DNA from: Nocardia sp. BMG51109
GTDB lineage: Bacteria > Actinomycetota > Actinomycetes > Mycobacteriales > Mycobacteriaceae
Direction: 5' to 3'
Length of the DNA: 64,000 bases
Assembly (NCBI RefSeq): GCF_000526215.1
Contig: NZ_JAFQ01000004.1
Location: forward strand, 6,200,001-6,264,000
Position numbers and translations under genes: made by a program. Positions 26,674-36,635 of this stretch are shown here, in pieces (within the stretch, counting starts at the first letter, position 1; every line of letters starts with the position of its first letter). Under the pieces are notes generated by a model, which did no database searches, was not told the origin of the DNA, and was given only the letters and a program-made list of their open reading frames with translations.

Positions 26674-28011
26674 TCAGTGTGCGGAGCGGTTGCGACGGCG
26701 GGGGTTACGAGGGCGGGGCGGGCGGCGAGGACCGCGGTTTCCGGGCGTGTCGCGCGGCCGAGGTGGTTCGACGGGTGCGGCGGGGTCGGGGAGGGGGCGG
26801 CCCGACGGCGGGCGGGCTCCGGTGATCGCGGTCAGTTCGGGGGTGCCGGGGCGGACGCGGACGGTGGTGGGGGTGGCGTCGAGTTCGTCCAGGAGGCGGT
26901 CGAATTCGGCGCGGTCGTCCTCGGTGACCAGGGTGACGACCGCGCCGGCGGCGCCCGCGCGGGCGGTGCGGCCGGATCGGTGCAGGTAGTCCTTGGGGTC
27001 CGCGGGCGGGTCGACCTGTACGACCAGGGAGATGTCGTCGACGTGCAGTCCGCGGGCCGCGACGTCGGTGGCCACCAGGACCGGAGCCGAGCCGTCGGAG
27101 TAGGCCGCCAGGGCGCGGGCGCGCTGGTGTTGCGAGCGGCCGCCGTGCAGATCGACGGCGGCCACGCCGGCCGAGCGGAGGCGGCGGGCCAGCTTGTCCG
27201 CGCCATACTGGGTGCGCACGAACAGCAGCGTCCGGCCGGCGCGGGCGGCGATCTCGGTCACGACCTCGTACTTGTCGGCCTTGCGCACGGCCAGGAGATA
27301 GTGCGAGATGGCCGGATTCGCCACCGCCGCACCGGGTTCGGGTCGCCCGGCCGTGTCGGTGGCGGCCACGGAATGGGTCCGGGGCGCGCGCAGATACCGC
27401 CGCACGAGCGTGTCCACGGCCTCGTCGAGGGTGGCGGAGAACAGCAGATGCTGGGCGTCGTCCGGGACCCGGTCCAGGACGTCGGTGATCTGCTCGAGGA
27501 ATCCGAGTCCGGCCATGTGGTCGGCCTCGTCGACGGCGACCACGCGCACCGCGTCCAGGGTGACGGCGTCGCGGGCGAGGAGATCGGCGAGCCGGCCGGG
27601 CGTCGCCACGAGAACGTCGACGCCGCGCGCGAGCCGCTCGGCCTGCCGCCTGATCGGCACGCCGCCCACCGCGGATCCGAGGCGCAGCCCCAGCGCGACG
27701 GCCGGTTCGTCGAGGGCCCGCTCGATCTGCAGGGCCAGCTCGCGGGTCGGCGACAGGATGAGCGCGCGCGGGCGGCGCGGCGCGGCGGCCCCGCGCATCA
27801 CCCGCACCAGCAACGGCAGGCCGAAGGCCAGCGTCTTACCGGAACCCGTTGCGGCCCGGCCGAGTACGTCACGCCCGGCGAGGATGTCGGGCGTGACGGC
27901 CGCCTGGATCGGGAACGCGGTCTCCAGGCCCGCCCGGCGCAGCGCCTGCACCAGCGCCACGGGCAGCCCGAGTTCGGCGAATCGCGGCGCGCCGGGGAGG
28001 TCAGGCGGCAC
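26674..28011 (-). CDS. DEAD-box RNA helicase
   Basis: A 445-residue superfamily 2 helicase with all core motifs: Q motif (FAELGLP ... PIQAAVTPDIL), motif I ATGSGKT, Ia PTRELALQ, II DEAD in VDEADHM, III SAT, V ATDVAARGLHV, VI HRSGRTARAG. The C-terminal ~50 residues are Arg/Pro-rich and disordered, typical of RNA-binding tails. It likely unwinds RNA in ribosome assembly or cold adaptation. It overlaps the M56 peptidase gene by 11 bp. It is not part of the M. tuberculosis Rv1843c-Rv1846c order, where gnd1 lies instead, so it was inserted or replaced that gene here. Confidence 0.93.
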   Translation of the reverse strand: MPPDLPGAPRFAELGLPVALVQALRRAGLETAFPIQAAVTPDILAGRDVLGRAATGSGKTLAFGLPLLVRVMRGAAAPRRPRALILSPTRELALQIERALDEPAVALGLRLGSAVGGVPIRRQAERLARGVDVLVATPGRLADLLARDAVTLDAVRVVAVDEADHMAGLGFLEQITDVLDRVPDDAQHLLFSATLDEAVDTLVRRYLRAPRTHSVAATDTAGRPEPGAAVANPAISHYLLAVRKADKYEVVTEIAARAGRTLLFVRTQYGADKLARRLRSAGVAAVDLHGGRSQHQRARALAAYSDGSAPVLVATDVAARGLHVDDISLVVQVDPPADPKDYLHRSGRTARAGAAGAVVTLVTEDDRAEFDRLLDELDATPTTVRVRPGTPELTAITGARPPSGRPLPDPAAPVEPPRPRDTPGNRGPRRPPRPRNPRRRNRSAH

Positions 28012-28954
28012 GGAACAACCGGCTCAGCTCGACCAGCCAGGGAATCGCCACGGCCAGCGTCGGCACGACCAGGATCGCCGCGGCGGCCAGGTAGGCGGCG
28101 GCGGCGATGCGCGGATCGCCCAGCGGCCCGGCCAGCCGCTGGATCCGGATCAGCGTGGTGGGCCCGCCGGCGGCCATGGCGCCTTGCGGCGCGGCGGAAT
28201 TCGAGCAGGTCACCAGGGCGCGGGCGAGCGGCGTGCGGCCGGTGATCTTGACCGCGGTGTCGTCGGCGAGCAGTTCGATCAGCAGCTTCACCGAATCGAG
28301 GGCCGACTTGCTGCGCACCCAGCGCGGGAACGCCTCGTGCGCCGCGGTGAACGCCTCCAGTACGAGATCGTGCCGGGCCCGCAGGTGGGAGCGCTCGTGG
28401 CTGACGATCGCCTTCAGCTCCGACTCCGACAGATTGGCGAAGGTGCCCTGGCTGAGCACCACGCGGCGGCGCAGGCCCGGCAGACAGTAGGCGATCGGTT
28501 CGGCGGCGGCCAGCACCCGGATGTCGGCGGCGCGGCGGGCGCTGTGCCGGTACTCCCGGCCCTGGTCGAGCAGGTCGACCAGCATCCGGTGCCGGGCGCG
28601 GCGGCGGCGGGTGTGCACGCCGACCCGGATCGATGCGTAGATCAGGCGCGCGCCCACCAGCAGGGTCAGGGCGAAGACCACGACGTAGGCCAGCCAGAGC
28701 GGCAGGCCCAGCGCATCGATCTCGCGGGTGGGGGAGGTGGTCGGGCGTCCGTCGGAGCCGGGCACCAGCAGCAGGCTCGCTATCGCGAGGCCGGATCCGA
28801 AGGCGCTGAGAACGGCGGCGAGGGCGACGGCCTGCCACAGGACGAGCGCCGCCCGCGGCGTCCGGAACGGCCAGGTGGCTCGACTGAGCAGGGCCGGAAC
28901 CGGGCCCGCGAGAAGCAGAGCGAGACCGGCGAAGACCGGCGCGGTTGCGTTCAT
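28001..28954 (-). CDS. M56-family zinc metallopeptidase (BlaR1-like, Rv1845c-like)
   Basis: A 317-residue integral membrane peptidase with about four or five membrane segments: residues 5-25, 35-60, 95-115, and 290-312 near the end. The M56 zinc motif is HERSH in AIVSHERSHLRARHD. Unlike staphylococcal BlaR1 it has no penicillin-binding sensor domain, so it belongs to the short mycobacterial form (Rv1845c). It is paired with a BlaI-type repressor 80 bp upstream on the same strand. By analogy it cleaves or inactivates BlaI on a signal, which in mycobacteria is linked to respiratory and ATP-synthase genes as well as to blaC. Confidence 0.9.
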   Translation of the reverse strand: MNATAPVFAGLALLLAGPVPALLSRATWPFRTPRAALVLWQAVALAAVLSAFGSGLAIASLLLVPGSDGRPTTSPTREIDALGLPLWLAYVVVFALTLLVGARLIYASIRVGVHTRRRRARHRMLVDLLDQGREYRHSARRAADIRVLAAAEPIAYCLPGLRRRVVLSQGTFANLSESELKAIVSHERSHLRARHDLVLEAFTAAHEAFPRWVRSKSALDSVKLLIELLADDTAVKITGRTPLARALVTCSNSAAPQGAMAAGGPTTLIRIQRLAGPLGDPRIAAAAYLAAAAILVVPTLAVAIPWLVELSRLFRAA

Positions 28955-29034: not shown

Positions 29035-29451
29035 CTACTGCGGCGGGGCGACTCCCTTGTCGTCGGACGCATCGCGCGCGGTCTCGGTTACCTCGAGCTT
29101 AGCGAGTGCATCCCGGAGAGCGGCAGCCTCATCCTTTCCGACCTGTTCGACGAAGTGCACGAGGGCGGCGCGGCGGCTGCCGACCTCGTCGGCCTGCTGC
29201 AGGGCGTCGACCATCAGGCTGGCGACGAGCTCGTCGCGGGTGTGTACGGGGGCATACCGATGGGCCCGGTCGTCGCGCTGCTGCACGACCAGGTCCTTCT
29301 TGGCCAGCCGCTGCAGCACGGTCATCACCGTGGTGTACGCGAGTTCGCGGTGCGCCGCGAGGGCCTCGTGGACCTGCCGGACCGTCTGTGGTTCATCGGC
29401 CGACCACAACTGGTCCATGACCGCTTTCTCGAGTTCACCAAGACCTGCCAT
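29035..29451 (-). CDS. blaI: BlaI/MecI/CopY-family repressor (Rv1846c-like)
   Basis: A 138-residue winged-helix repressor. The N-terminal DNA-binding domain is well matched (LGELEKAVMDQLWSADEPQTVRQVHEAL, LAYTTVMTVLQRLAKKDLV), and a C-terminal dimerisation and cleavage region follows (residues 75-120). In M. tuberculosis the orthologue BlaI represses blaC, its own operon with Rv1845c, and genes of respiration. An operator-like site lies 35 bp upstream. It is first in a two-gene unit with the M56 peptidase and the positional equivalent of Rv1846c. Confidence 0.93.
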   Translation of the reverse strand: MAGLGELEKAVMDQLWSADEPQTVRQVHEALAAHRELAYTTVMTVLQRLAKKDLVVQQRDDRAHRYAPVHTRDELVASLMVDALQQADEVGSRRAALVHFVEQVGKDEAAALRDALAKLEVTETARDASDDKGVAPPQ

Positions 29452-29528: not shown

Positions 29529-30371
29529 TCATAGCGTCGAAGTGTCCTGGTCGGGACCGCCGACGGTGCCCACGACGTGGCGGGTGCCGATCGGCACGAT
29601 CATCGGGCGCCCGGACACCGGGTCGTCGAGCACGGTTGCCGACAGCCCGAACACCTCGAGCAACAGTTCGGCATCGATGATGTCGGCGGGCGCACCCTGC
29701 GCGACGATCCGCCCGTTGCTCATGACGACGAGCCGGTCGCTGTAGCGGATGGCGAGATTCAGGTCGTGCAGCACCATGACGACGGTGCGGCCCAGATCGT
29801 GATGCAGCCGGTCGACCAGGTCCAGCACCTCGAGCGAATGGGCCAGATCGAGGAAGGTGGTCGGCTCGTCGAGCAGCAGGATGTCGGTGCCCTGTGCGAG
29901 CGCCATGGAGATCCAGGCGCGCTGGCGCTGACCGCCGGACAGCTCGTCGAGGGTGCGGTCGGCCAGGTCGGCGATGCCGGTCTGGGCCAGCGCCTCGGCC
30001 ACCTCGGTCTCGTCGTCGGCCGACCACTGGCGCAGCCAGGACTGATGCGGGTGCCGGCCGCGCGCGACGAGATCGGCGACGGTCAGGCCCTCCGGCGCGA
30101 CGGGGGACTGCGGCAGCATGCCGACGATCCGTGCCACGTCGCGGGACTTGAGGGTGGCGATCGCCTTGCCGTCCAACAGGACCCGCCCCGCCCGCGGGCG
30201 CAGCAGCCGGCCCAGCGCGCGCAGCAGCGTGGACTTGCCGCAGCCGTTGGGTCCGATGACGGTGGTGACCACCCCGGTCTCGATGTCCAGCGACAGGCCG
30301 TCGATGACGGCGCGCCCGCCGTAGCCGAGGCTGAGATCGTCGGCGAGGAGGCGGTGCGGGGTGGCGGTCAT
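29529..30371 (-). CDS. Iron-siderophore ABC transporter ATP-binding protein
   Basis: A 280-residue ABC ATPase of the FepC/FhuC type: Walker A GPNGCGKST, Q loop MLPQSPVAPEG, signature LSGGQRQRAW, Walker B ILLLDEPTTFLD, and the switch His in VLHDLNLA. It energises ferric-siderophore or haem import. The ATG overlaps the stop of the upstream permease by four bases. Last gene of a three-gene minus-strand unit controlled by an IdeR box. No substrate-binding lipoprotein is encoded in the unit, so one must act from elsewhere. Confidence 0.93.
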   Translation of the reverse strand: MTATPHRLLADDLSLGYGGRAVIDGLSLDIETGVVTTVIGPNGCGKSTLLRALGRLLRPRAGRVLLDGKAIATLKSRDVARIVGMLPQSPVAPEGLTVADLVARGRHPHQSWLRQWSADDETEVAEALAQTGIADLADRTLDELSGGQRQRAWISMALAQGTDILLLDEPTTFLDLAHSLEVLDLVDRLHHDLGRTVVMVLHDLNLAIRYSDRLVVMSNGRIVAQGAPADIIDAELLLEVFGLSATVLDDPVSGRPMIVPIGTRHVVGTVGGPDQDTSTL

Positions 30372-31459
30372 GAGAGGGTCGCCTTCCGGTTCGTGCGCAC
30401 GAGCAACAACAGCAGGAACGGACCGCCGAGGGCGGCGGTGACGATGCCGACCGGCAGGTCGACGGGCACCACGGTACGCGCGATCACGTCGGCGCCGACC
30501 ACGATGAGCGCGCCGACCAGCGCCGATCCGAACACCGGCTCGCCGGGCGCGCGCAGCAGCCGCCGCGCGATCTGGGGCGCCAGCAGCCCGACGAAGGCGA
30601 CCGGGCCGACGGCCGCGGTGGCCAGCGCGGCGGCGACGACGGCGGCGCCGAGCAGCAGGGCCTGCTGCGCCTGCAGGCGCACGCCCAGCGCCCGGCTGGT
30701 GTCGCTGCCGAAGCGCAGGGCGGCGAGGGTGCGCGTCGAGCCGACGGTGACGGCGAGTACCAGGACGAGGCCGATCCCCGCGGTGACGGCGCGGGTGCCG
30801 TCGGCGCCGTCGAGCGAACCCGTCAGCCACAGCTGCGAGCGGGTGGCGTCGGTCAGGGTGGCCCGGGTCAGCAGCCAGCTCACCCCCGACAGCAACAATC
30901 CGTTGACGCCGATCCCGATGAGTACCAACCGCATTCCGGTCGGGCCCGACGCCCCGTCGCGGGTGCGCTTCCAGGCGAGCAGATAGATCGCCACCGCGGT
31001 GAGCAGCCCGCCGCACAGCGCGGCGAGCGGCACGCCGAGGCCGAGGGCCGCGCCGGCGCCGGTGGCCGCCCCGGTGCTCGTGACCGTGGCGACGGCGGCG
31101 AAGCTCGCGCCGGAGGTGATGCCGAGCAGGTCCGGACTGGCCAGCGGATTGTGCAGGATCGACTGGGTGACCGCGCCCGCCAGTCCCAGTGCCGCGCCGG
31201 CGATCACGGCGGTCACCGCGCGCGGCAACCGCGACTCCAGGACGATGAACCGCTGCGCCCGCGTGCCGCCGCCGGTGAGCACGTCCAGCACCCGCCCGAG
31301 CGGAATCCGGTACTCCCCGATGGCGATATCGAGCGCGAACAGGCCGAACGTGGCGATCGCGAGTCCGATCACGGTGAGCAGCACCGAGATTCGCAGCACG
31401 GACGAGAACGGGCCGAGGCGCACCGCGGGCCGCACCCGCGACAGTGTCGGAATGCTCAC
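30368..31459 (-). CDS. FecCD-family iron transporter permease (second)
   Basis: A 363-residue permease of the FecCD/BtuC family with about 9-10 membrane helices. Typical motifs: LPRAVTAVIAGAALGLAGAVTQSILHNPLASPDLLGI near residue 80, and LGVPLAALCGGLL, GPVAFVGLLAPQIAR, DVIARTVVPVDLPVGIVTAALGGPFLLLLL towards the C-terminus. The start is a GTG that overlaps the stop of the first permease (GTGA). It forms a heterodimer with the upstream permease. Substrate is inferred as ferric siderophore from the IdeR box. Confidence 0.92.
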   Translation of the reverse strand: MSIPTLSRVRPAVRLGPFSSVLRISVLLTVIGLAIATFGLFALDIAIGEYRIPLGRVLDVLTGGGTRAQRFIVLESRLPRAVTAVIAGAALGLAGAVTQSILHNPLASPDLLGITSGASFAAVATVTSTGAATGAGAALGLGVPLAALCGGLLTAVAIYLLAWKRTRDGASGPTGMRLVLIGIGVNGLLLSGVSWLLTRATLTDATRSQLWLTGSLDGADGTRAVTAGIGLVLVLAVTVGSTRTLAALRFGSDTSRALGVRLQAQQALLLGAAVVAAALATAAVGPVAFVGLLAPQIARRLLRAPGEPVFGSALVGALIVVGADVIARTVVPVDLPVGIVTAALGGPFLLLLLVRTNRKATLS

Positions 31460-32493
31460 AGCCCCACCGCCTTCCGGCGCCGGACGAACCAGATGAAGCA
31501 GGGCGCCCCGACCGCCGCGAGCACGATACCGGTCTGCAGTTCGCCGGGGCGGGCGACGAGGCGGCCGACGATGTCGGCCAGCAGGAGCAGCAGCGCGCCC
31601 AGCAGGCCCGAATAGGGCAGCAGCCAGCGGTGATCCGGGCCGGTGAACAATCGCGCCAGATGCGGGACGACCAGTCCGAGGAACGAGATCGGGCCGACCG
31701 CTGCGGTGGCCGCGCCGGTGAGCAGGACGACCGCGGCCAGTCCGAGCGCCCGGTTGCGGCCCACGTTCACCCCGAGCCCGCGCGCCACGTCCTCGCCGAG
31801 GCCGAGCGCGTTGAGCCCGGGCGCGGCCAGCAGCGCGAGCACCGTGCCGAGCGCGAGGAACGGCAGCACCTGCACCAGCACGTTCGCGTCGTGCCCGGCG
31901 ACGGTGCCGACCACCCAGTATCGATAGGTGTCCAGCGCCGCCGGATCCAGCAGCACGACGGCGTTCGTCAGGGCCTGCAGCAGCGCGGTGACCGCGGCGC
32001 CGGCCAGCACCAGGCCCAGCGGGCTCGCCGTGCCGCCGCCGGCCGAGGACGCGGCGAACACCACCACCCCGGCGATCAGGGCGCCCGCGAACGCGAACCA
32101 GATGTACTGCTCGGGCCGGGTCAGCGCGAACAGATGAATGGACAGCGCGGCCAGGAACGCCGCCCCGGCATTGAGGCCGAGCAGTCCGGCGTCGGCGAGC
32201 GGGTTGCGGGTGTAACCCTGGATGAGCGCGCCGGCGATGCCGAGCGCCAGCCCGGTGATCAGCGCGAGACCCGTCCGGGGCAGCCGCAGCTCGCGCACGA
32301 TCTGGTCTTCGGGGGTCACCGCCGGGCAGCTCAGCGGCCATCCGCCCGGACAGGTGAGCGCGTGGTAGACGGTATCGAGCGACAGTGACCTGGCGCCCAC
32401 GGCGATCCCGGCCGCGACGGCGACCAGCAGCAGCATCGTCAGGATCAGCAAACCTGCGACGCGATGCCGAGTGAGGGTGACTGCGGCGGGCAC
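31456..32493 (-). CDS. FecCD-family iron transporter permease (first)
   Basis: A 345-residue FecCD-type permease: LRLPRTGLALITGLALGIAGALIQGYTRNPLADAGLLGLNAG, then LGLGEDVARGLGVNVGRNR, GPISFLGLVVPHLARLFTGPDHRWLLPYSGLLGA and ARPGELQTGIVLAAVGAPCFIWF. Nine or ten membrane helices. A hydrophilic loop with two cysteines (CPGGWPLSCP, residues 48-57) follows the first helix, facing outside; this is unusual but seen in some nocardial copies. GTG start with an AGGAG about 12 bases upstream. First gene of the importer unit, about 45 bp from the IdeR box. Confidence 0.92.
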   Translation of the reverse strand: MPAAVTLTRHRVAGLLILTMLLLVAVAAGIAVGARSLSLDTVYHALTCPGGWPLSCPAVTPEDQIVRELRLPRTGLALITGLALGIAGALIQGYTRNPLADAGLLGLNAGAAFLAALSIHLFALTRPEQYIWFAFAGALIAGVVVFAASSAGGGTASPLGLVLAGAAVTALLQALTNAVVLLDPAALDTYRYWVVGTVAGHDANVLVQVLPFLALGTVLALLAAPGLNALGLGEDVARGLGVNVGRNRALGLAAVVLLTGAATAAVGPISFLGLVVPHLARLFTGPDHRWLLPYSGLLGALLLLLADIVGRLVARPGELQTGIVLAAVGAPCFIWFVRRRKAVGL

Positions 32494-32538: not shown

Positions 32539-32557
32539 TCTGGTAAGCCTAACCTAT
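32539..32557. promoter_or_regulatory. IdeR iron box between importer and FhuF-like gene
   Basis: On the minus strand it reads ATAGGTTAGGCTTACCAGA, matching the IdeR/DtxR consensus TTAGGTTAGSCTAACCTAA at 15 of 19 positions. It lies between two divergent starts (32493 and 32641) and so can repress both when iron is abundant. Confidence 0.88.
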
Positions 32558-32640: not shown

Positions 32641-33348
32641 ATGTCCGAACCGATGACCGCCAGTGCGGCGCGCCGATCCGACGAGGCGTTCGGATATGCC
32701 TGTGCCCGGTTGCGCGCCCTGCAGCCGGAACATCCGCGGGTGTACGCCGTGGCAGCGATGGCGGACCAGACCCGGCGTCGGTGGTGGCGACTGGTCGACG
32801 GTGTGCGCGAGGGGCGGGTGGAGGTGATGTACCGGCGGCACGCGGCGGAGATGAGTAGCGCCGAGATCGCCGCGGAGGTGGTGGCCACGGCGCTGATTCA
32901 CGCCGTCGTCGGCCGGGTGGTGGCGCTGTTCGTGGCGGAGGGCCGGGCCTGGGATCCGGGTCTGGAGAACCTGTGGGTGCACAGCGACAACGACGGCGGC
33001 GTGGACTGGGCGGGCCTGTCCGACACCACGATCCGGGTGATCGACGGCGACCGGCTGGCGGGGCGGCCCGGCGTGGTGGCGCTGCCGTGCGAGCGCGCGA
33101 TGTCGGTGTGGCTGGCGCACCGTTGCGAGGCGGCGCTGATGCTGGTGCAGCGCAGCATGTCCCGGTGTTCGGGTCTGAGTGCGCGGCGGTTCTGGGTGCT
33201 GGTGGCCGAGTCGATCACCGGCGCGGCGACCTATGTGCCGGATCTGGCGCGCGCGTCCTCGACCGTCGGCGCCGAGCGCGGGCAGGCGCTGCTGGCCGCG
33301 ATGGAGGAACGCGGCATGCCGGTCCGTCGCGCTTGCTTAGTTAGGTAA
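32641..33348 (+). CDS. FhuF-like protein lacking the Fe-S tail
   Basis: A 235-residue protein divergent from the iron importer and sharing its IdeR box. Its organisation resembles siderophore-iron reductases of the FhuF type: a helical N-terminal half (EVVATALIHAVVGRVVALFVAEGRAW), a WVHSDNDGG strand, and a helical C-terminal half (FWVLVAESITGAATYVPDLAR). FhuF proteins end with a CC...C...C motif that holds a [2Fe-2S] cluster. Here the protein stops at RRACLVR, exactly where the Cys motif would begin, so reductase activity is doubtful. The missing tail coincides with an IdeR box and promoter for a small RNA. Strong AGGAGG ribosome binding site. Family assignment tentative. Confidence 0.5.
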   Translation: MSEPMTASAARRSDEAFGYACARLRALQPEHPRVYAVAAMADQTRRRWWRLVDGVREGRVEVMYRRHAAEMSSAEIAAEVVATALIHAVVGRVVALFVAEGRAWDPGLENLWVHSDNDGGVDWAGLSDTTIRVIDGDRLAGRPGVVALPCERAMSVWLAHRCEAALMLVQRSMSRCSGLSARRFWVLVAESITGAATYVPDLARASSTVGAERGQALLAAMEERGMPVRRACLVR

Positions 33349-33362
33349 GCCTGCCCTACACT
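33333..33362 (+). promoter_or_regulatory. IdeR-boxed promoter of putative MrsI sRNA
   Basis: A -35-like TTGCTT (33333-33338), 18-bp spacer and -10-like TACACT (33357-33362) surround and overlap TTAGGTAAGCCTGCCCTAC (33341-33359), an IdeR box matching the consensus at most positions. The box also contains the last codon and the stop of the FhuF-like gene. Predicted start of transcription near 33369. Repressed by IdeR-iron and induced by iron starvation. Confidence 0.75.
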
Positions 33363-33368
33363 GAAAAT

Positions 33369-33465
33369 CGGCGTTCGGATCGGCGAGAGTCCCGAGGGCT
33401 GCGGTCGACCCCCGATCCTGTGCCCGCGGCGGGCCCCACGAAACCACGTGGGGCCCGCCGCTTTT
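33369..33465 (+). ncRNA. mrsI: Putative iron-regulated small RNA, MrsI orthologue
   Basis: About 97 nt from a predicted start downstream of an IdeR-boxed promoter to the end of a strong terminator. Structure seen: a 7-bp stem (GGAUCGG 33377-33383 with CCGAUCC 33412-33418) enclosing an unstructured-looking loop with GAGAGUCCCGAGGG, then a 15-bp terminator hairpin. There is no open frame with a ribosome binding site. In M. tuberculosis the iron-sparing sRNA MrsI (ncRv11846), IdeR-regulated and about 100 nt, lies between blaI (Rv1846c) and the Rv1847 thioesterase gene. Here the RNA lies between the same two flanking genes, with the iron importer inserted on the blaI side. It probably represses mRNAs of iron-containing proteins during iron starvation. 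Identity by position, regulation and size, not by sequence comparison. Confidence 0.72.
33426..33465 (+). terminator. Intrinsic terminator of the small RNA
   Basis: A perfect 15-bp stem (33426-33440 with 33447-33461), loop AAACCA, followed by TTTT. It ends the predicted small RNA. Confidence 0.9.
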
Positions 33466-33544
33466 CGTCACCGCCGGTCGTCCGGGGAACCAGGCCGGGA
33501 TACCCGCGAACGGAGTGGTGTCCGCCCTGTGTAAATGTTTTCCT

Positions 33545-33988
33545 ATGACCCAGCGCGACCAGTCACTCTCGATGGCGAATATGACACCCGAGCTCATGAC
33601 TCGGCTCAGCGAAGGGCACTTCACCGACCTGATCGGCCTGAAGTACACCGAACTCGGGCCCGACCGGGTGGCCGGGGAGTGGGTGGTGTCGCCGCAGCAG
33701 CACCAGCCCGCCGGCATCGTCAACGGCGGCGTGCACTGCACCGTGATCGAGACGCTGGCCAGCGTGGGCGGCAGCGTCTGGTTCGGCGAACGCGGCACGG
33801 TCGTCGGGGTCAACAACAACACCGACTTCCTGCGGCCGGTGCGCGCGGGCACGCTGCGGGGCGTGGCGACCCCGATCCACCGCGGCCGGACGCAGCAGCT
33901 GTGGCAGGTGGTGATCACCGACGAGCAGGACCGGATGGTCGCGCGCGGGCAGGTGCGGTTGCACAACCTGCAGTCTGTCCAGGACTGA
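33545..33988 (+). CDS. PaaI-type hotdog thioesterase (Rv1847-like)
   Basis: A 147-residue single-domain hotdog thioesterase of the PaaI/YbaW type: [24 protein letters not shown], then the active-site helix [23 protein letters not shown], then [24 protein letters not shown]. It hydrolyses acyl-CoA thioesters. The orthologue of M. tuberculosis Rv1847 stands next to the urease genes there too. The ATG at 33545 has no ribosome binding site but a -10-like TAAATG lies 7 bp upstream, so the mRNA is probably leaderless. An internal ATG (33572) is possible. Confidence 0.88.
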
Positions 33989-34208: not shown

Positions 34209-34511
34209 ATGCGATTGTCGCCGCATGAGCAGGAACGGCTGATGCTCAGCTACGCGGCCGAGCTGGCCCGCCGCCGCCGGGACCGCGGGCTGAAGCTCAA
34301 CCACCCCGAGGCGGTGGCGATCATCACCGACCACGTGCTCGAGGGCGCCCGCGACGGCCGCACCGTGGCCGAGCTGATGGCATCGGGCCGCGCGGTGCTC
34401 GCGCGCGACGACGTCATGGACGGCGTGCCGGAGATGATCCACGACGTCCAGGTGGAGGCCACCTTCCCGGACGGCACCAAGCTCGTGACCGTGCACCACC
34501 CGATCGGCTGA
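34209..34511 (+). CDS. ureA: Urease gamma subunit
   Basis: A 100-residue UreA with the complete family pattern: [80 protein letters not shown]. It is the small structural subunit of nickel urease, which hydrolyses urea to ammonia and carbamate. GAGGAG ribosome binding site. First gene of ureABC, with ureB 28 bp downstream. Confidence 0.97.
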
Positions 34512-34917: not shown

Positions 34918-36635
34918 GCGAGCTGACCCGTGCCCGGTACGCGGAACTGTTCGGGCCGACCACCGGCGACCGGATCCGCCTGGCGGACACCGGCCTGCTG
35001 ATCGAGATCACCGAGGACCGCAGCGGCGGACCGGGTTCGGCGGGCGACGAGGCCGTCTTCGGCGGCGGCAAGGTGCTGCGCGAGTCCATGGGCCAGTCGC
35101 GGGCCACCCGCGCGGAGGGCACTCCCGACACCGTCATCACCGGCGTGGTGATCGTCGACCACTGGGGAATCATCAAGGCCGACATCGGTATCCGGGACGG
35201 CCGCATCTGCGGCATCGGCAAGGCCGGTAATCCGGACATCATGGACGGCGTGCACCCGGACCTGGTGGTGGGCGCGTCGACGGAGATCATCGCGGGCAAC
35301 GGGCGCATCGTCACCGCCGGCGCCATCGACTGCCACGTGCACTTCATCTGCCCGCAGCTGCTCGAGGAGGCGCTCGGCGCCGGCATCACCACCATGGTCG
35401 GCGGCGGCACCGGACCCGCCGAGGGCAGCAAGGCCACCACCGTCTCGCCGGGCTCCTGGCATCTGGGCCGGATGCTGGAGGCCACCGACGGCTGGCCGGT
35501 GAACATCCTGCTGCTGGGCAAGGGCAATACCGTGCGGCACGAATCGCTGTGGGAGCAGTTGCGCGGCGGCGCGGGCGGTTTCAAGCTGCACGAGGACTGG
35601 GGCACCACCCCGGCGGCCATCGATGCCGCGCTCACCGTCGCCGACGCGGCGGGGGTGCAGGTGGCGCTGCACTCGGACACGCTGAACGAGGCCGGCTTCG
35701 TGGAGGACACCCTCGCCGCGATCGCCGGCCGGGCCATCCACTCGTATCACACCGAGGGGGCCGGTGGCGGCCACGCGCCGGACATCATCACGGTCGCGGC
35801 CCACCCCAACGTGATGCCGAGCTCCACCAACCCGACCCGGCCGCACACCGTGAACACCCTCGACGAGCATCTGGACATGCTCATGGTGTGCCATCACCTG
35901 AACCCGGCGATTCCGGAGGATCTGGCGTTCGCCGAGAGCCGGATCCGGCCGTCCACCATCGCCGCCGAGGATCTGCTGCACGACCTGGGCGCGATCTCGA
36001 TGATCGGCAGCGATTCACAGGCGATGGGGCGGATCGGGGAGGTGGTGATGCGCACCTGGCAGACCGCGCACATGATGAAGCGCCGCCGCGGCGCGCTGCC
36101 GGGCGACGGTGCCGCCGACAATCTGCGGGTGCGCCGCTACGTCGCGAAGTACACCATCTGCCCGGCCGTGACGCACGGTCTCGACCACGAGATCGGCTCG
36201 GTGGAGGTCGGCAAGCTGGCCGATCTGGTGCTGTGGGAACCCGCCTTCTTCGGGGTGCGGCCGCATGCGGTGCTCAAGGGCGGCACGATCGCGTGGGCGG
36301 CGATGGGCGACGCCAACGCCTCGATCCCGACCCCGCAGCCGGTGCTGCCGCGGCCGATGTTCGGTGCCGCGCCGGCGGTGACCGCGGGCACCTCGCTGCA
36401 CTTCGTCTCGGAGCAGGCGGTGGAGGCGGGCCTGGCCGAGCGGTTGCGGGTGAACCGGAAGCTGGTGCCGGTGGCCGATGTGCGCAAGCGCGGTAAATCC
36501 GATCTGCCGCACAACGACGCGATGCCGCGCATCGAGGTCGATCCGGACACCTTCACCGTGCGCGTCGACGGCGAGGTGTGGGCCGAGGACCCGGCCACCG
36601 AACTGCCCATGGCACAACGGTATTTCCTGTTCTGA
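34914..36635 (+). CDS. ureC: Urease alpha subunit (catalytic)
   Basis: A 573-residue catalytic subunit. Nickel ligands are visible: CHVHF (two His), [10 protein letters not shown] with the Lys that becomes carbamylated and its His, [19 protein letters not shown], and the Asp in [12 protein letters not shown]. The active-site flap Cys is in MVCHHLNP. Length matches the family. It overlaps ureB by four bases. The usual accessory genes ureF/G/D do not follow here; they are about 7.7 kb downstream. Confidence 0.98.

Follow-up and report, generated by a model that had tools for sequence, protein, structure and literature searches.

The window analysed here is a 64,000-nucleotide (nt) stretch of the Nocardia sp. 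BMG51109 genome (contig NZ_JAFQ01000004.1, positions 6,200,001 to 6,264,000). At 33369..33465 on its forward strand it carries a predicted MrsI-type small RNA of 97 nt, which on sequence comparison is almost certainly an orthologue of MrsI (ncRv11846). According to passages of one review, MrsI lies at 2096766-2096867 of Mycobacterium tuberculosis H37Rv, between blaI and Rv1847 (PMC8628891); passages of another describe a seed of 6 nt and an unpaired apical loop of 7 nt (PMC11188477). In the passages available from these two reviews and from a third (PMC12101431), MrsI is described as mycobacterial, with bfrA as its published target.

The RNA of the window lies between counterparts of the same two genes. 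A BlaI-type repressor gene, corresponding to Rv1846c, is located at 29035..29451 on the reverse strand (Pfam PF03965, 98.4 bits), and a hotdog thioesterase gene, corresponding to Rv1847, at 33545..33988 on the forward strand; the top solved-structure match of the thioesterase is 3s4k (Rv1847/MT1895; E 4.2e-38). The thioesterase gene begins 79 bases past the T run that ends the RNA, on the same strand. Between BlaI and the RNA are a siderophore ATP-binding cassette importer, encoded at 29529..32493 on the reverse strand (ATPase, about 29529-30347; first FecCD permease, about 30368-31432; second FecCD permease, 31456-32493), and a gene for a FhuF-like ferric reductase (32641..33348, forward strand, start codon provisional), whose PF06276 score of 23.9 bits is slightly below the cut-off of 25.2.

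The RNA is preceded by an IdeR box, TTAGGTAAGCCTGCCCTAC (33341..33359, forward strand), with 3 mismatches to the consensus string TTAGGTWAGSCTWACCTAA. Only two matches with 3 or fewer mismatches were found in the 64-kilobase (kb) window, versus none in any of 100 shuffles. The second (32539..32557, forward strand) lies in the gap from which the FecCD importer and FhuF-like genes diverge, so the whole importer/FhuF block may be iron-controlled. The box of the RNA overlaps a putative -10-like hexamer, TACACT (33357..33362, forward strand), and follows a putative -35-like hexamer, TTGCTT (33333..33338, forward strand); the nocardial alignment shows a comparable TTG-C stretch at the position of the latter in many of its rows. 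The spacing of 18 bases between the hexamers would put the start of the RNA near 33369. The FhuF-like gene has its stop codon (33346-33348) inside the box, 20 bases 5' of this predicted start; the C-terminal codons of the gene and the box overlap, and each must therefore constrain the other.

The predicted RNA folds into a long hairpin followed by a terminator. Its lower stem is formed by GGATCG (33377..33382) and CGATCC (33413..33418), and its apical stem by GTCCCG (33389..33394) and a partner within 33402-33409; these enclose a 7-nt loop, AGGGCUG (33395..33401), the proposed seed. A pattern search places an intrinsic terminator at 33426..33465, with a 15-base-pair (bp) stem (33426-33461), a 6-nt loop and TTTT; two terminator-like sites were found in 2001 bases, where 0.4 were expected. 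The 97 nt have a predicted folding energy of -60.7 kcal/mol (z -4.8; reached by 0/200 shuffles). Five relatives, with an identical 7-nt loop, give z values of -3.6 to -6.1 (0/200 shuffles each). An earlier note on this DNA had described an IdeR box overlapping a promoter, about 97 nt, a 15-bp terminator with TTTT behind it, and flanking genes as in M. tuberculosis; all of these were found in place, the promoter as putative hexamers. The same note had reported no protein-coding frame. Taken literally this is incorrect, as all three forward frames are open over the 97 nt. Among 39 nocardial copies, however, stops occur in the three frames of 12, 18 and 12, and length differences are not multiples of three, which makes a conserved protein unlikely.

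Copies of the RNA are found throughout the genus and in much of the family. Of the 148 genomes of the genus, 145 matched in a BLASTN search with 33325-33470 (box included); of the other three, two are less than 90% complete. The model R1 was built from A1, a plain MAFFT alignment of 39 nocardial transcripts without the box; A1 does not include L006 and L032, whose terminator part is broken, nor L051 and several near-identical sequences among the 47 distinct copies (L and G numbers denote loci and genomes). The window copy, itself among the 39 training sequences, scores 93.9 bits against R1 over the full model length. Within the family, R1 matched 284 of 401 genomes, of which 52 belong to the genus whose copies trained it, and 21 of 31 genera. 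With a wider model, R2, a search of 249 genomes of the order gave 36 matches, every one of them within the family. Among the genomes listed for this search 42 are of the family, which leaves about 207 from other families; its strict filters may miss weak matches. Genome G129 has two copies 17 kb apart (L049:985-1081 and L049:17989-18089, both on the reverse strand), each with a box; the second has Rv1847 nearby, and around the first, locus L049 shows no Rv1847 match.

For a test independent of the RNA, 80 loci (the named loci) were chosen only for their resemblance to Rv1847 of M. tuberculosis at the protein level, as the best 80 of 530; 78 of them bear mycobacterial names. R1 matched 61 of the 80, 5' of the thioesterase gene, and all 61 hits contain the loop AGGGCUG. 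BlaI is divergent upstream in 60 of these hits, and Rv1847, by which the loci had been picked, is downstream on the same strand in all 61. With the M. gastri copy as BLASTN query, the mycobacterial genus gave a match in 341 of its 396 genomes; none of the matches listed lies at the coordinates published for H37Rv, and the 80 named loci include no M. tuberculosis record. Among the loci, a contig labelled Bifidobacterium breve (L173) carries an Rv1847-like gene whose product is 65% identical to its mycobacterial counterpart; the contig is probably mislabelled.

The IdeR box accompanies the RNA at these loci. A box scoring at least 13/19 lies upstream of the RNA in 19/19 loci of other genera and in 60/60 scored named loci; the model that located these 79 RNAs is free of the box. 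Shuffled upstream sequences reached 13/19 in 3 of 380 cases (other genera) and 13 of 1200 (named loci), or 16 of 1580 in total. When the nocardial loci are added, the box is present before 129 of 129 RNAs, compared with 10 of 562 positions drawn at random from these loci, which may themselves include further genuine IdeR boxes. The scoring leaves out L091 and L051, which have no exact core (the match in L051 is weak and unrelated), and L105, which has too short an upstream region.

The structure is maintained by paired changes. An 86-sequence alignment (A4), made from 85 fetched loci, was fitted to a model with the apical and terminator helices and is biased towards them. The six pairs of the apical stem are formed in 86/86 sequences (100% of cells), and three have changed on both sides. 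The pair at columns 34-44 is U-A in 54 sequences, C-G in 24, A-U in five and G-C in three; as aligned, this variation is compensation, mostly between genera. In the lower stem (helix 1) 85% of cells are paired, with changes on both sides in four of six pairs. In the terminator stem 95.9% are paired, and each of the 14 pairs has changed on both sides in some sequence. For the whole structure the proportion is 94.5%, versus 82.4% in shuffles (0/500) and 34-46% when the structure is slid along the alignment. Compensation is also seen in A1, in 13 of 20 pairs. The loop is fixed in sequence: AGGGCUG is present in all 39 nocardial copies and in 85 of the 86 rows of A4, and the lone exception (L091) has one changed base. 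Nocardial copies differ from the others in the pair adjoining the closing pair of the loop, which is C-G in most of the former and U-A in most of the latter.

A rival reading makes the RNA a cis-acting element, a leader or attenuator for the thioesterase-urease genes, in which IdeR would govern the start of the thioesterase mRNA and the terminator would tune read-through. The short gap to a thioesterase gene on the same strand, and the presence of Rv1847 downstream in every named hit, are compatible with such an arrangement. However, 6 of 49 nocardial loci (L035, L038, L040, L044, L048 and L049) have the RNA directed away from Rv1847-ure, with the box on the upstream side of the RNA, and in nine loci (L084, L090, L101, L014, L018, L020, L029, L030 and L041) about 1 to 2.5 kb separate it from Rv1847. 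The compensatory changes in the terminator stem also speak against it, and we consider a leader very unlikely. It is highly improbable, too, that the RNA is the 3' end of the mRNA of the FhuF-like gene, either as an RNA derived from the 3' untranslated region or as a mere terminator. That gene ends within the box, just before the predicted start, and a transcript from the box at 32539 could include the RNA. At 54 of the 61 named loci and 5 of the 19 loci of other genera, though, the RNA and its own box occur with no FhuF match beside them (tblastn, nocardial protein, 1e-6), a count in which a distant FhuF may escape tblastn and some loci end early; FhuF is present in the other seven named loci. 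Since the RNA can be reversed relative to Rv1847 and can occur without FhuF, a free-standing RNA accounts better for these loci than a leader of Rv1847 or a tail of fhuF.

The importer genes were regarded in the earlier note as inserted between the two flanking genes, a view that calls for a reservation. Of 49 nocardial loci, many of which span only 3 kb, 25 have FecCD genes next to the RNA, as do 13 of 19 loci and 6 of 10 genera outside the genus of the window; the remaining four genera have BlaI upstream with no FecCD between. (Gene contexts were counted without L001 and L067, duplicates of the place in L002, without L052-L081 and without loci numbered L182 or higher.) The FecCD importer is thus probably no insertion peculiar to Nocardia. 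Its loss in mycobacteria and other genera would be the simpler reading.

Complements of the loop were sought upstream of bfrA, a site being any 7-mer at -40 to -10 that pairs with the loop over its full length and contains no more than one G-U pair. Such a site is present in 10 of 26 RNA-bearing mycobacteria; six of the ten are perfect, start at -25 to -27 and precede the Shine-Dalgarno sequence AGGAG. It is present in none of 17 genomes without the RNA (11 judged by covariance model and six by BLASTN only), most of which have near-identical leaders and appear to be one clade, so that they may represent one or few evolutionary events. Background windows, with 25 start positions compared with 31 in the test stretch, contained a site in 33 of 4477 cases, four of them perfect. 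The 26 bearers were drawn from 31 genomes, the others being G528 and G406 (no RNA), G519 and G535 (incomplete, no listed match) and G518 (no bfr). Second bfr copies of G534, G175 and G529 were left unscored, and L270, L274, L276 and L278 were dropped as duplicate places of L269, L273, L275 and L277. In other genera, a perfect site is found further upstream of bfr (-44 to -49) in 3 of 16 cases, and a one-wobble site at -20 in one. A TIGR00754 bfr gene is present in 10 of 30 nocardial genomes, one of which (G026) has a perfect site at -76.

Taken together, the position between the same genes, the IdeR box, the length, the terminator, an apical stem kept by compensation and the fixed loop, along with the bfrA site in mycobacteria, strongly support orthology with MrsI. 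The RNA resembles MrsI of M. tuberculosis and M. smegmatis in its blaI-Rv1847 place, strand, length of about 100 nt, IdeR box, intrinsic terminator and 7-nt apical loop; it differs in that the nocardial locus has importer genes between BlaI and the RNA, and in the nocardial bfr leaders considered below. An unrelated iron-regulated RNA that lies at the place of MrsI by coincidence is extremely improbable. The comparison was made with relatives rather than with the M. tuberculosis sequence, and no family in Rfam 15 reaches its gathering score over the RNA, which leaves some room for such a coincidence. Against it, one structural model spans nocardial and mycobacterial copies over their full length, with the same loop; the 6-nt seed and 7-nt loop of MrsI, as given in passages of the reviews, agree with the window RNA; and the complement of the loop precedes bfrA in 10 of 26 mycobacteria. 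The earlier proposal of a MrsI orthologue outside Mycobacterium is thereby supported, and similarity in structure and loop to copies at the MrsI locus is seen in the 61 named hits. At a lax threshold the Rfam search returned only 6C and P17, both far below their gathering scores. Like the window RNA, 6C (RF01066) is a small RNA with GC-rich stems, and in a 401-base search it matches 33400-33463 (30.3 bits, E 0.032). The chance that the element is a 6C-type RNA (B11), another conserved actinobacterial small RNA, is nevertheless negligible: the match begins inside the loop, rests on the terminator half and is absent from the whole-window Rfam scan, and with 30.3 bits against a gathering score of 47 identity with 6C was rejected.

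The best overall explanation, and a very likely one, is a nocardial MrsI orthologue that forms a free-standing iron-starvation RNA with its seed in the loop. We infer from the mycobacterial bfrA sites that AGGGCUG is this seed. Iron-loaded IdeR would sit on the promoter; upon iron shortage it would leave the box, and the RNA of about 97 nt would be made and ended at the intrinsic terminator. The long hairpin would then expose the 7-nt loop, which would pair with CAGCCCU-type sites near mRNA starts, in the leaders of dispensable iron proteins. Pairing would lower the translation or stability of these targets, so that iron would be spared. Its mode of action would resemble that of RyhB and PrrF (both Fur-regulated), FsrA and IsrR, which are made on release of an iron repressor and have an iron-sparing effect; a difference is that M. 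tuberculosis lacks Hfq. It is likely that the RNA acts in trans through its loop under IdeR control. Transcription, control by IdeR, repression of targets and an iron-sparing role in this Nocardia are all predicted from sequence features.

Several results weigh against this explanation. A consensus sigma-70 scan called no promoter at the 5' side of the RNA, and the two hexamers agree with the consensus at only 3/6 and 4/6 positions. R1 found no match in 117 of the 401 family genomes and in 19 of the 80 named loci. Membership in MrsI rests on relatives of the M. tuberculosis RNA at the same locus and on the reviews. Among the RNA-bearing mycobacteria, 16 of 26 have no site at -40 to -10 of bfrA; the ten nocardial bfr genes likewise have none in that stretch, a difference from MrsI as known. 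The bfr gene of the strain itself (L203) contains no loop-complementary 6-mer or 7-mer between -90 and +45. Because this concerns a target and not a feature of the RNA, it limits the claim of function more than that of orthology. Target prediction in the same genome, which had been suggested along with the original identification, was likewise unsuccessful: a pattern consisting of CAGCCCT, a Shine-Dalgarno-like RGGA and a start codon showed no excess over the reversed pattern used as a control, in the genome of the strain (19 versus 28) or in eight other nocardial genomes (170 versus 210).

All 19 sites in the genome of the strain were inspected, together with 15 chosen elsewhere for a good Shine-Dalgarno sequence among the matches listed. 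In genome G089, a perfect complement of the loop and a Shine-Dalgarno sequence precede the gene at L333:249-1277 (forward strand), the translation of which resembles a Rieske oxygenase. This Rieske-like iron-sulphur protein is a candidate iron-protein target, at a frequency within chance expectation. A similar site lies before a gene at L338 whose translation resembles a substrate-binding lipoprotein, and here too chance allows for it.

The named loci without an RNA match are concentrated in one group. Mycolicibacter accounts for 11 of the 19, which are all the loci so named among the 80. A whole-genome search of ten of these 11 (L126, L139, L141, L149, L152, L154, L155, L156, L164 and L169; L165 was outside that search) gave no RNA match, and the ten genomes are also without a site in their bfrA leaders. 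Judged from these sequences, the Mycolicibacter clade is a natural knock-out for both the RNA and the bfrA site. For the eight misses outside Mycolicibacter, the RNA is found elsewhere in the genome in two and no match was obtained in six. One of the six is an M. kyorinense strain (L138); a second strain so named (L121) has the RNA. At a mycobacterial locus from a metagenome-assembled genome (L178:3479), a good IdeR box precedes the thioesterase gene with no RNA match.

In the literature covered, which comprised titles, abstract openings and passages and left subscription papers mostly outside its scope, we found no report of MrsI outside Mycobacterium; none is made in the passages available from PMC7029489, PMC3388012, PMC9410917, PMC8600241 and PMC12101431. 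The 17 of 70 N. brasiliensis RNAs given in Table 2 of PMC5543724 include none with such neighbours. The range of the RNA is therefore wider than the reviews describe in those passages, and from its distribution MrsI looks like an old, shared control RNA rather than a mycobacterial speciality. Whether it goes back to the ancestor of the family, its 7-nt seed staying frozen as targets are exchanged (bfrA in mycobacteria, other mRNAs in Nocardia), seems to us an evenly balanced question. If it is family-wide, the seed, partners and target choice of MrsI can be studied in relatives that are harmless, and the 86 aligned copies supply a covariance model for an RNA that matched none of the Rfam families. 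A fixed seed, combined with the lack of the best-known target site in another genus, makes the rewiring of a small-RNA regulon directly testable. The system also bears on how small RNAs act without Hfq or ProQ, as no homologue of either is described in mycobacteria in the passages available from PMC7308464.

Further genes complete the neighbourhood. A BlaR-like M48/M56 peptidase is encoded at 28001..28954 on the reverse strand, upstream of the RNA. Downstream, ureA (urease gamma; 34209..34511, forward strand) is followed by ureB and ureC, these last two read from their translations. An Rfam match to the 5' ureB small RNA lies antisense to ureC (35076-35370, reverse strand; 56.7 bits) and is also found in L085 and L160; it probably does no more than mirror the conserved coding sequence of urease.
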